Below, piece by piece: positions 2,831 to 60,070 of a stretch of 64,000 nt of DNA. The notes under the pieces are model-generated. The model did not search any database, had not been told where the DNA came from, and saw nothing but the letters and a program-made list of their open reading frames with translations. Positions within the stretch are counted from its first letter, which is position 1; every line of letters starts with the position of its first letter. The DNA lies in assembly GCA_949297775.1 (NCBI GenBank), contig CASFTM010000001.1, positions 1-64,000 on the forward strand, read 5' to 3'. The position numbers were made by a program, and so were the translations under genes. The stretch is from an uncultured bacterium (GTDB taxonomy: Bacteria > Elusimicrobiota > Elusimicrobia > Elusimicrobiales > Elusimicrobiaceae).

Positions 2831-3802
2831 TTACCGGAAAATTTTACTCCAAAAAAAAACGCTTTCCTCCCCGCTTTGCTGCACCAGCCAACAAAACAGT
2901 CCCCACCGTATTTTGGCCCAACCGCAAAGGGAAGCCTGTTCCTGGCAGACGGTTTGAAATATCCAGTCCAACAACGGTTGCTGTTGCGCCCGCTGCTCCG
3001 CCGAAAATTTACGGAACCGGCAAATCCCCCATACCGCCGCATGCACCCACGCAGAGGCGAGTTGTTCATTCCACCGGCCCCGCCGCTTCAGTTCCTGCCG
3101 CAATTCCACCAGGTTAAGCAAAATTCCCACCGCCATCCGAAAAGCCTGGCTGGTAATTGCCCCGGGGACATTTTTGCGGTAAGCATACAATTTTTCAGGA
3201 ACCACCGTTACCTGCGCCGCATAGAGAAAAGCCAATATCACAAAAGAAAAATCTTCCGCCACCCGCCCGGGCCAAAAGCGGAACCGATGCCGCGCCAAAA
3301 AAGAACGTTCAAACAATTTTCCCCACAGGACCGCATCCTCATAACCGGCCCGGAACCGCGGGCCGTCCCCGGCAGGAACCGGGCGGTAAAAACTCCGGTG
3401 GCAATGCGTTTTGTTCCGCGGAGTACCGTCTTCTTCCAATTCATAAAAGAAGCATTTCGTCACTTCCGCCCGGGTTTGGACCGCAGCCGTATGCAAAATT
3501 TCCAAATACCGGGGAAGCACCAAGTCATCGGCATCCACAAAGGCCACATAACGACCCCGCGCTTCGTCCAGCAATCGGTTGCGGGCCGCCGCCACCCCCT
3601 GATTGGTCTGCGTCAGCACCCGCACGCGGGAATCCTCCCGGGCGGTTTGCCGCAAAACGGACAACGATTGGTCCACAGAACCGTCATCCAAGCACAACAC
3701 CTCTATATCCGCAAAGGTTTGGTGCAACACAGACGCCAAACACAACGGCAAGTATTTCTCCGCATTATAAACGGGAATTAAGACAGAAACTGCAGGGCGC
3801 AT
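2831..3802 (-). CDS. Family 2 glycosyltransferase
   Basis: This protein probably transfers a sugar from a nucleotide donor to an envelope polysaccharide or lipid. The start is ATG at 3802, 7 bases after AGAGGAGG, giving 323 residues. The N-terminus is a typical GT-A fold: PAVSVLIPVYNAEKYL, then LCLDDGSVDQS, then AARNRLLDEARGRYVAFVDADD, where DAD is the metal/donor site. The C-terminal ~120 residues are Arg/Trp-rich and resemble no domain I can name. The gene stands alone between non-coding stretches and has no polysaccharide cluster beside it. The acceptor cannot be inferred. Confidence 0.88.
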   Translation of the reverse strand: MRPAVSVLIPVYNAEKYLPLCLASVLHQTFADIEVLCLDDGSVDQSLSVLRQTAREDSRVRVLTQTNQGVAAARNRLLDEARGRYVAFVDADDLVLPRYLEILHTAAVQTRAEVTKCFFYELEEDGTPRNKTHCHRSFYRPVPAGDGPRFRAGYEDAVLWGKLFERSFLARHRFRFWPGRVAEDFSFVILAFLYAAQVTVVPEKLYAYRKNVPGAITSQAFRMAVGILLNLVELRQELKRRGRWNEQLASAWVHAAVWGICRFRKFSAEQRAQQQPLLDWIFQTVCQEQASLCGWAKIRWGLFCWLVQQSGEESVFFWSKIFR

Positions 3803-4511
3803 AAGGCCTCCTCTTGTGATATTGCAGCACACCCCCAGCCGCGCACAGCGGCAGGCGGAGTTATACACAGAAGCAATGAAAACTCTCTAGCAGGAAGCGG
3901 GCTTCTAACACCCGCGCAGAACAAGAAGAGGACAAAAAACGGCCGTTTGCCCCGAGCCACATCACTAACCCAGAACAAACAGCCGTAGCTGCCTTGCCAT
4001 AATAAATATGGCAAGGAGCATTCAACGCAATCTAAGCGGGTAATTAGGCCGCAAGGGTTGCGTTTTAAAACGGCTGTTTTTGGCGTGATGTGTGCCGCTT
4101 TCGCAGCGCAGCCTGTTCCGCGCAGGCTTCCAAAAACAGCAGAAAGGGTGGAACGAATGTTCCAGCCGGAACTGCTCCGGCTATTATATGGTAACAAATT
4201 TTCCGCCGTACCCCAACCGGAACAGCCTTGATTTTTATCCAAACCGGCCTACACTAGTTATATCTGACGTACCCGGAGGCGCATCAAATAATTCTTCAGC
4301 TTTATAAGCGGCTCTCCGCCGCCGGCAATAACTCCCGCGTCGGGCGCGTGCGTTATTGTTTCCGTTTATCATCCGCGCCGCTTTGGAACCGGTTCCGGTT
4401 TGTTTTTGCGGCGCAGCTGCCCCCGCAGCTTCATCCTTCCGGCAGGGTCCGGATAAACCGTCTGTCAGGCAAAAACGCTCCACGCCCGTACGCGCGGGCG
4501 CGCGGGTTTCA
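3803..4511. other. Non-coding hairpin-rich region upstream of hpf
   Basis: This ~700-base stretch has no convincing coding sequence on either strand. It is dense in inverted repeats. The 3958-4182 part is described separately. Further examples are CAATAAC/GTTATTG around 4325-4357, the palindrome GGAACCGGTTCC near 4375, and GCCCG/CGGGC near 4485-4500. It ends at the hpf promoter. Confidence 0.6.
3958..4182 (+). ncRNA. Candidate structured RNA upstream of hpf
   Basis: Perfect inverted repeats are nested here. P1 is CACATCAC (3958-3965) with GTGATGTG (4085-4092). P2 is AAACAGCCGT (3977-3986) with ACGGCTGTTT (4070-4079). Inside are an arm CCTTGCCATA/TATGGCAAGG (3992-4016) and an arm AACGCAA/TTGCGTT (about 4024-4064). 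A competing 11-bp stem pairs GCTGTTTTTGG (4073-4083) with CCAAAAACAGC (4130-4140). Two short hairpins follow, TGGAAC/GTTCCA (4149-4164) and AGCCGG/CCGGCT (4164-4182). The strand is uncertain because the pairings are symmetric. It could instead be a miniature inverted-repeat element. Confidence 0.45.
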
Positions 4512-4540
4512 TTGACAGGGGGCCTGATTAATGGTTTAAT
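4512..4540 (+). promoter_or_regulatory. Promoter of the hpf-hprK-PTS operon
   Basis: A perfect TTGACA at 4512-4517 and TTTAAT at 4535-4540 are 17 bases apart. The leader is about 37 bases and contains a GGAGGA ribosome site just before the ATG at 4584. Confidence 0.75.
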
Positions 4541-4583
4541 AACTCTACGGGGGTTTCTCTCGTAATTATTTAACGGAGGAATT

Positions 4584-5135
4584 ATGGATATTAAAATTAC
4601 GGCCAAAAATATTAAATTAACTCCGGCCATCAAAGAATTTATTAATACGCGCGTGGGAAAAGTGGAAAACTTTTTTGACAATATCGTTTCCGCGCAAGTG
4701 CTCATTTCCGTAGAAAAGAAAATCAACCAGCGCGCCGAAATTATTTTGCACACCGGTGCCAAAACCACCATCAGCGCCAGCGCCGTGGAAAGCAACCTCT
4801 ACAAAGCCATTGACGCCGCCGCCGTGAAAGCCGAAGCGCAGGCCAAAAAAATCAAAAACAAAGCCAAAGCCCGCAAAGTAAGCAAAAAATCCGTCAAGGA
4901 AGTGGACTTAAACCCCTTTGCCGAACACGTGCTTTTGCCGCAAGATGATGTGAAATTTTCCGTCATCAAGCAGGTGGAAGTTTCCCCGATGAACCCGGAA
5001 GACGCCGCCTACGAAATGGAACGCCTCGGGTATTCGTTCTGGATTTTCTTAGACGAAGATTCCAAACAAATCAACCTGATTTTTAAACGCCTGGACGGCA
5101 CCTACGGTTTAATTAAACCGGTAAAAAAGAAATAA
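4584..5135 (+). CDS. hpf: Ribosome hibernation promoting factor, long form
   Basis: HPF binds the 30S decoding region and, in the long form, dimerises 70S ribosomes into inactive 100S particles in stationary phase. At 183 residues it has the long architecture. The RaiA/YfiA domain (MDIKITAKNIKLTPAIKEFINTR) covers about residues 1-100. A Lys-rich linker follows, and the C-terminal dimerisation domain (VEVSPMNPEDAAYEMERLGYSFWIFLDEDS) covers about 128-183. It is the first gene of the PTS operon, 18 bases before hprK. This hpf-hprK-rapZ-PTS order is also known from proteobacterial rpoN regions. Confidence 0.95.
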   Translation: MDIKITAKNIKLTPAIKEFINTRVGKVENFFDNIVSAQVLISVEKKINQRAEIILHTGAKTTISASAVESNLYKAIDAAAVKAEAQAKKIKNKAKARKVSKKSVKEVDLNPFAEHVLLPQDDVKFSVIKQVEVSPMNPEDAAYEMERLGYSFWIFLDEDSKQINLIFKRLDGTYGLIKPVKKK

Positions 5136-13836: not shown

Positions 13837-13915
13837 CTTTGTCCGTTAACGCGATTAGTGGCGCCAGACTGCTTTCGCAATGCCGCGCCCTTGCGCAACG
13901 GCCCTCCAGGCCGCG
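13837..13915. repeat. Interspersed repeat unit upstream of pilin 1
   Basis: A degenerate copy of the ~88-base repeat family also seen at 16032, 48381 and 59836. The core GTCCGTTAACGCGATTAGT begins at 13841. It is followed by the ACTG...CGCAATG...GCGCAAC segment and a GGCC-rich hairpin near 13900. Confidence 0.6.
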
Positions 13916-16031: not shown

Positions 16032-16310
16032 GGCCCAGAGCCTGGGCCCCCTACTCTATGCCCGTTCATGTGATTAGGTTAAGCCACACTATTTCAGCAA
16101 TGTTGCACGCTTACGCAACTGCCCAGATCCTGGGCCCCAGCTCTATGCCCGTTCATGTGATTAGATTAAGCCACACTATTTCAGCAATGTTGCACGCTTA
16201 CGCAACTGCCCAGAGCCTGGGCCCCCTGCTCTATGCCCGTTAACACGACTAGTCTAAGCCACACTGCTTTAAAATGTCGCACTATTCAAAAGAAAGCTGT
16301 TTCCTCTTAT
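16032..16310. repeat. Tandem array of the ~88-base interspersed repeat
   Basis: Three head-to-tail units have cores starting at 16059, 16146 and 16234 (spacings 87 and 88). The first two are almost identical; the third is degenerate after about 16260. Each unit begins with a short hairpin GGCCCAG-AGC-CTGGGCC (first at 16032-16048), followed by CTCTATGCCCGTT..., GCCACACT and a GCACGC-TTACGCAACTG segment. Open frames across it are a by-product of its period. Confidence 0.85.
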
Positions 16311-59827: not shown

Positions 59828-59835
59828 GCCCAGAG

Positions 59836-60070
59836 GCGGGGTTCCCTTCTCTATGCCCGTTAACACGACTAGTTTAGGCCACACTGTTCCGATATGTCGC
59901 ACTCTAACGAAACAGCCCTTGCCAGGGGCAGGGCCAGAGCCTGGCCCCCTTCTCTATACCCGTTAGCGCGATTAGTTTAAGCCACACTGTTTCCGCCATG
60001 ACGCGCCCTTACGCCACGGCCCAGAAGCTGGGCTCCCCTCTCTATGCCCGCCAACACGATTAGTTTAAGT
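59836..60070. repeat. Interspersed repeat array upstream of pilin 3
   Basis: Three copies have cores starting at 59854, 59957 and 60045 (spacings 103 and 88). Hairpins lie between them: GGGCCAG-AGC-CTGGCCC at 59931-59947 and GGCCCAG-AAG-CTGGGCT near 60019-60035. The arms differ between copies but remain self-complementary. Confidence 0.8.

Follow-up and report, generated by a model that had tools for sequence, protein, structure and literature searches.

A structured RNA of about 210 nucleotides, encoded on the minus strand at positions 3934–4143 of the window (the whole 64,000-nucleotide stretch of Elusimicrobiaceae DNA analyzed here), represents a previously uncatalogued RNA class that belongs to none of the Rfam families tested. 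Comparative sequence evidence supports it well as a cis-acting transcription attenuator, whose terminating action we infer. Moreover, most copies in the family of the window genome contain a hairpin, named H3, with a self-complementary apical loop, and we assign a probability of about 0.62 to the reading that the element is an attenuator equipped, in the copies bearing H3, with a homotypic kissing-loop module.

The leader RNA and its alternative pairings

The 225-base segment 3958–4182 contains, on inspection, the inverted repeats that an earlier note on this DNA had described, and its surroundings (3940–4200) fold far better than dinucleotide shuffles (z = −6.95 on the plus strand and −6.56 on the minus strand), with none of 200 shuffles equally good on the plus strand. 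The 11-bp stem 4073–4083/4130–4140 proposed in that note is an exact perfect complement. The competing stem exists as well, as a perfect 10-bp pairing of 3977–3986, although its partner is 4070–4079, three bases off the coordinates first given, and the strand common to both pairings covers approximately 4070–4083. Further hairpins are formed by 3992–4001/4007–4016 and 4024–4039/4049–4064. The functional strand is the minus strand, since a terminator stem followed by a U-run is found there (3986–3939, then TTTTTT) and the genes located 3' of homologous elements lie in the minus direction; the plus strand was rejected, as homologues, terminator and genes all indicate the opposite one.

All parts of the system described next are on the minus strand and are given in the direction of transcription. 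A TATAAT sequence at 4183–4188 is, judging from the sequence and its relatives, a possible −10 box of the leader; its context, AAATTTGTTANNATATAA, is conserved among close relatives, and the sequence offers no good candidate for a partnering −35 box. Between this putative promoter and the first switch strand, one or two small hairpins (H0, 4150–4181) are located, and similar ones occur upstream of other copies. Switch strand A (GCUGUUUUUGG, 4130–4140), the perfect 11-bp complement of strand B, is invariant in the 24-sequence alignment of subtype I (A1) and is exchanged as a set in subtype II. It is followed by hairpins H1 (4110–4128, covarying helix 2) and H2 (4094–4107, covarying helix 3), by the 5' strand of an antiterminator extension, P1ext (CACAUCAC, 4085–4092), which pairs with 3958–3965, and by switch strand B (CCAAAAACAGCCGU, 4070–4083), whose partner is either A or A' according to perfect repeats and covariation. 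Hairpin H3 (4024–4064, helices 4–5) has a covarying stem with double-sided changes in 15 of 15 pairs and displays the self-complementary loop core UAAUUA at 4041–4046, while hairpin H4 (3988–4019, helix 6) shows such changes in 13 of 14 pairs. Switch strand A' (ACGGCUGUUUG, 3976–3986) pairs with B in the antiterminator or with B' in the terminator, whose loop holds the 3' strand of P1ext (GUGAUGUG, 3958–3965). The 3' half of the terminator comprises strand B', delimited as 3950–3939 in the pairing scheme, and the U-run (GCAAACGGCCGUUUUUU, 3934–3950 in total, helix 7). Downstream, the Shine–Dalgarno sequence GAGGAGG (3807–3813) precedes the regulated gene, which encodes a family 2 glycosyltransferase of 323 residues (about 2831–3802; Pfam PF00535, E 6.4e-33) and has an ortholog 3' of the element in close relatives. 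Between the leader and the start of this gene, a sub-threshold match to the twister-P1 ribozyme (3802–3867, minus strand, 18.3 bits, E 0.73) is probably due to chance.

The covariance model of subtype I (R1) matches the entire element with 175.2 bits and an E-value of 5e-54, E-values of this kind being rough. In alignment A1, 49 of the 73 pairs present double-sided, compensatory changes; double-change cells number 241 versus 85.5 in shuffles that ignore relatedness, and the paired fraction of cells is 88.5% versus 38–46% in slid controls. In a second, distant family (f21), double-change cells amount to 899 versus 281 in the control, in an alignment that was fitted to the model. This conservation of the stems in relatives bears out the suggestion of a structured, switch-like RNA with competing stems and excludes the absence of conservation that the earlier note had named as a refutation.

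Covariation supports all three of A:B, B:A' and A':B' as mutually exclusive pairings; A':B' forms the intrinsic terminator. They combine into two sets: A:B with A':B' (terminator), and B:A' with P1ext (4092–4085 with 3965–3958), sometimes accompanied by A:B'. The letters of A, B, A' and B' are nearly invariant across subtype I and are weakly informative alone. P1ext, by contrast, is highly variable in sequence, yet complementary inside each element: the longest pairing averages 10.1 bp within the own element versus 5.3 bp with the partner strand of other elements, and a pairing of at least 7 bp is reached by 100% of the 191 copies in the family of the window genome (f1) versus 17% of mismatched combinations, and by 95.5% versus 18% in f21. 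An intrinsic terminator upstream of the gene is present, with AACAGCCGUUUUU conserved among copies, and the mutually exclusive antiterminator shows covariation both in the P1ext comparison and in the exchanged letters of subtype II. Since the terminator set is predicted to be lower in energy, by 5.7 ± 4.1 kcal/mol over 166 copies, the default state is probably OFF. Sequestration of the Shine–Dalgarno sequence by the stretch that follows the U-run is not claimed, given a weak excess in f1 (33% own versus 19% other pairings of at least 7 bp) and no own-versus-other excess in f21.

In subtype II, captured by a separate model (R2), the letters of A, B, A' and B' are replaced by UUAUUUGUUGGA-type strands while the pairings are kept. 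H3 is missing from this subtype and from some other copies, and kissing would therefore be dispensable for the switch. With R2, matches are obtained in 106 of 341 genomes and in 26 of 100 genera, some of them being subtype I copies detected a second time; the class thereby reaches 26 genera. The genes 3' of subtype II copies encode pilins, glycosyltransferases and an EcoRI-like methylase.

According to the proposed mechanism, the 5' strand A would pair with B during transcription, freeing A' for B' and generating the intrinsic terminator (OFF). Alternatively, B:A' together with a 10-bp P1ext would block the terminator, and the polymerase would read into the pilin gene, or other surface gene, located about 38 nt further on (ON).

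Distribution of the class and the genes it precedes

The genomes surveyed are mostly metagenome assemblies. R1 matches 95 of 341 Elusimicrobiota genomes, including 80 of the 90 in f1; the matches that carry a name belong to Elusimicrobiaceae/Elusimicrobiales, and many of these assemblies come from rumen or gut. Diverged copies are also present in f21. When the GTDB set was scanned for the exact pattern, essentially all of the matches listed were from Elusimicrobiota, and the two others (L143, Scytonema, and L156) have R1 scores at chance level. The number of copies per genome ranges from one to at least 131, the maximum being reached in a single 1.7-Mb genome (G020), and differs widely among related genomes; the window genome has two strong R1 copies. 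The element was absent from the viral, phage and plasmid collections searched, and an origin in such entities was rejected on that account. With regard to known RNAs, scans with all Rfam 15 models at gathering score detected nothing but tRNAs, both in the window and at 20 homologous loci, no family matched at E ≤ 0.1 in 13 further homologous loci, and scanning 3700–4700 at E ≤ 10 produced weak chance matches only. No prior report of the element was found in the open-access papers searched.

A same-strand ORF follows the element in 147 of 151 distinct copies, at a median distance of 38 nt. The prepilin N-methylation motif (N_methyl, type IV) is present in 86 of the 123 downstream proteins that were scanned, and 31 match ComP, a minor pilin of DNA uptake. 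Other downstream products comprise glycosyltransferases, polysaccharide pyruvyl transferase, outer-membrane proteins, lipoproteins and TM2 proteins, as well as DNA methylases (EcoRI type) and HSDR_N proteins. Across 370 kb of G020, the element lies directly upstream of 28 of 45 pilin genes, and one more gene there carries subtype II (G020:C16:48837). The link to pilins is lineage-dependent, since in the window genome N_methyl matches number at least 80, yet neither of the two strong copies precedes a pilin: one precedes the glycosyltransferase gene and the other a gene for a secreted-looking protein of unknown family.

Several additional features of these genomes deserve mention. Prepilin genes are extremely expanded in f1 genomes, that of the window included: each genome, 1–2.3 Mb in size, has between 12 and at least 80 N_methyl matches. 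EcoRI-type adenine methylases are encoded 3' of the leader in both f1 and f21 (L126, L105, L008, L331 and L195), and two tandem leaders precede the gene at L195. In G020, the similarity between leaders and that between their downstream pilins are uncorrelated (rho −0.004, 55 leader–gene pairs), which led to the rejection of leader/pilin co-duplication; it is as if leaders and pilins had been reshuffled, or the leaders homogenized. Upstream of pilin genes devoid of the RNA element there is usually a conserved block that resembles a promoter and has an uninterrupted T12–T13 tract in its −35/−10 spacer, namely TTGACGCG-T12-GATATTCT in G020 (L283–L302; contigs C29, C16 and C22) and TTGATTTG-T12-GATAAATT in the window (minus strand, at about 48325, 13687 and 59793). 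Such a T-tract hints at phase variation by strand slippage. In G020 the block is followed by a hairpin predicted to sequester the Shine–Dalgarno sequence. Moreover, an 87–88-bp tandem unit contains TAATCGYGTTAACGGGCA, a sequence with 9 matches in the window versus 0.38 expected; the arrays of this unit are short (16033–16265 and 59828–60067, also at 13840, 24377 and 48381), and several are found just upstream of pilin genes.

The self-complementary loop and competing explanations

Hairpin H3 is located between B and A', and its stem varies freely with covariation. Its loop is palindromic in 180 of the 191 f1 copies, with about 20 different palindromes that include UAAUUA, GAUC, UUAUAA, UCAUGA, UUCGAA, GGCC, UUGCAA, CUGCAG and CUCGAG. 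Compared with loop shuffles, a control that ignores relatedness, palindromes of at least 4 nt are found in 49 of 54 distinct f1 loops (23.7 ± 3.4 in shuffles) and 6-nt palindromes in 32 of 54 (4.9 ± 2.1), while the control loops of H1, H2 and H4 have palindromes at chance level. The 5' flank is one nucleotide longer than the 3' flank in 144 of the 180 palindromic loops, the commonest geometries being 2+6+1, foremost, and 2+4+1; six of the eleven non-palindromic f1 loops are GACG tetraloops. The excess is weak in f21 (14 of 22 loops versus 9.4 ± 2.2), where recurrent non-palindromic loops are GCUCGCUAC, GCUCAUUAC and variants of a conserved AAGCUAUGU loop. A self-complementary apical loop is, in short, kept across sequence change in f1 and less clearly in f21.

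Elements 80–86% identical outside H3 bear different palindromes, and loop class shows no association with how alike the elements are outside H3 (0.605 versus 0.597). Because of this independence, the H3 loop behaves like an interchangeable code. Palindromes made entirely of A and U have a length of six nucleotides, with two copies as exceptions; computed loop stacking reaches −5.6 kcal/mol or lower in every copy except these two, a modeled floor of the kind expected if duplex strength were selected; the commonest palindrome, UAAUUA, consists of A-U pairs throughout and would kiss weakly. A palindrome acting at the DNA level, as the site of a dimeric DNA-binding protein or recombinase, is disfavored, since H3 stems vary freely and the extra base of the 5' flank shifts the dyad of the loop relative to that of the stem.

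These data suggest dimerization through H3 loops. H3 would emerge immediately ahead of A', when the choice between the two sets is made, and its loop would probably kiss that of another leader with the same loop code, either a nascent transcript or a terminated leader acting as a small RNA. Docking would most likely stabilize the P1–H3–H4 junction and favor read-through, although this direction is a guess, and different palindromes would form insulated cross-talk groups. A more ambitious proposal is an RNA self-recognition code, in which leaders with the same palindrome dimerize in trans and jointly set the read-through of variant pilins in insulated groups, with no protein regulator. The dozens to more than 100 leaders per genome are candidates for such a code, which we advance tentatively, at somewhat below even odds.

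The same attenuator might instead receive its input from a small ligand or an RNA-binding protein at the H1–H2 or H3–H4 junctions, the palindromes being binding sites of a dimeric protein. The terminator/antiterminator logic suits any input, conserved single-stranded positions adjoin H1–H4, and subtype II works without H3. However, no compact invariant pocket is seen, the loops of H1, H2 and H4 vary freely, and some 20 different palindromes are ill-suited to one protein, as is the offset between the dyads of loop and stem, so that we consider this input unlikely, albeit the most credible of the alternatives. A search for ANTAR antiterminator domains in 21 relatives gave no match, and the control of that search likewise matched nowhere. 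A free-standing small RNA that acts in trans, equipped with a promoter and a terminator of its own and lying next to a gene that is a mere neighbor with a separate promoter, would account for the clear terminator and the possible promoters upstream, and terminated leaders would be RNAs of about 200 nt in any case. This is improbable in view of the ORFs that follow nearly all copies on the same strand, with a Shine–Dalgarno sequence and at a tight distance, and of an antiterminator that excludes the terminator, a purposeless device in a simple small RNA.

More improbable still is a dispersed mobile or recombination cassette, either MITE-like or a site swapping leaders between pilin genes, with the structure as a by-product. 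The earlier note had held that many dispersed copies with target duplications would indicate a miniature transposable element; copies are indeed dispersed, up to the large set in G020, their number varies among relatives, and the uncorrelated similarities reported above mean that leaders and genes may reshuffle. Against it, orientation and distance to the start codon are fixed, every helix covaries, the terminator looks functional, the letters of subtype II are very different, and the viral, phage and plasmid collections yielded nothing. Finally, the original assignment to the raiA motif, or to an RNA linked to hpf, is refuted and retains hardly any probability. The proximity of hpf (4584–5135, plus strand; Pfam PF02482/PF16321) is peculiar to this genome; it is a divergent neighbor outside the system, the element points on the opposite strand toward the glycosyltransferase gene, and hpf is near only 9 of 234 copy loci. 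Moreover, the raiA covariance model has no match at E ≤ 10 over 3700–4700 on either strand, and none at gathering threshold in the window and 20 homologous loci. The attenuator with a kissing-loop module in H3 copies is the reading that we prefer.

Relation to known RNAs and biological meaning

T-box leaders and purine and SAM-I riboswitches share with the element a 5' leader with exclusive terminator and antiterminator and an anti-antiterminator strand. The likeness to T-boxes extends to a specificity that is RNA-coded in a loop, but the loop is self-complementary here and complementary to tRNA in T-boxes. The element further differs from these systems in matching no Rfam family, the T-box model included (window and homologous loci), and in regulating genes for pilins and surface functions. 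The dimer initiation site of HIV-1 has a 9-nt loop with a 6-nt palindrome in 2+6+1 geometry. Retroviral sites of this type share with the element that commonest geometry, GACG loops and flanking unpaired bases. GACG tetraloops are found in the dimer initiation of MoMuLV and MVV (PMC516450, PMC5874298), and the motif has been implicated in retroviral RNA dimerization (PMC516450). Unlike these sites, the element is a bacterial mRNA leader with about 20 palindromes per family and many per genome, and nothing indicates viral descent. In the guanidine-II riboswitch, a pair of hairpins in the same RNA forms a kissing contact around guanidine through invariant ACGR loops (PMC7357161); it is likewise a bacterial leader with a short palindromic loop–loop contact, whereas the element has one such hairpin per RNA and diversified loops. 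The raiA motif RNA is alike only in adjoining a raiA/hpf gene, in this one genome, and differs in sequence, structure, strand and gene.

The analysis adds a large, unreported class of cis-regulatory RNA, phylum-wide in a poorly studied group. In several lineages the element stands ahead of many members of the surface gene family that has expanded most in these gut bacteria. Should the loops kiss as proposed, they would apparently constitute the first natural set of diversified, orthogonal homotypic modules by which cellular mRNAs recognize one another, and would point to an RNA-only choice among many pilin genes.
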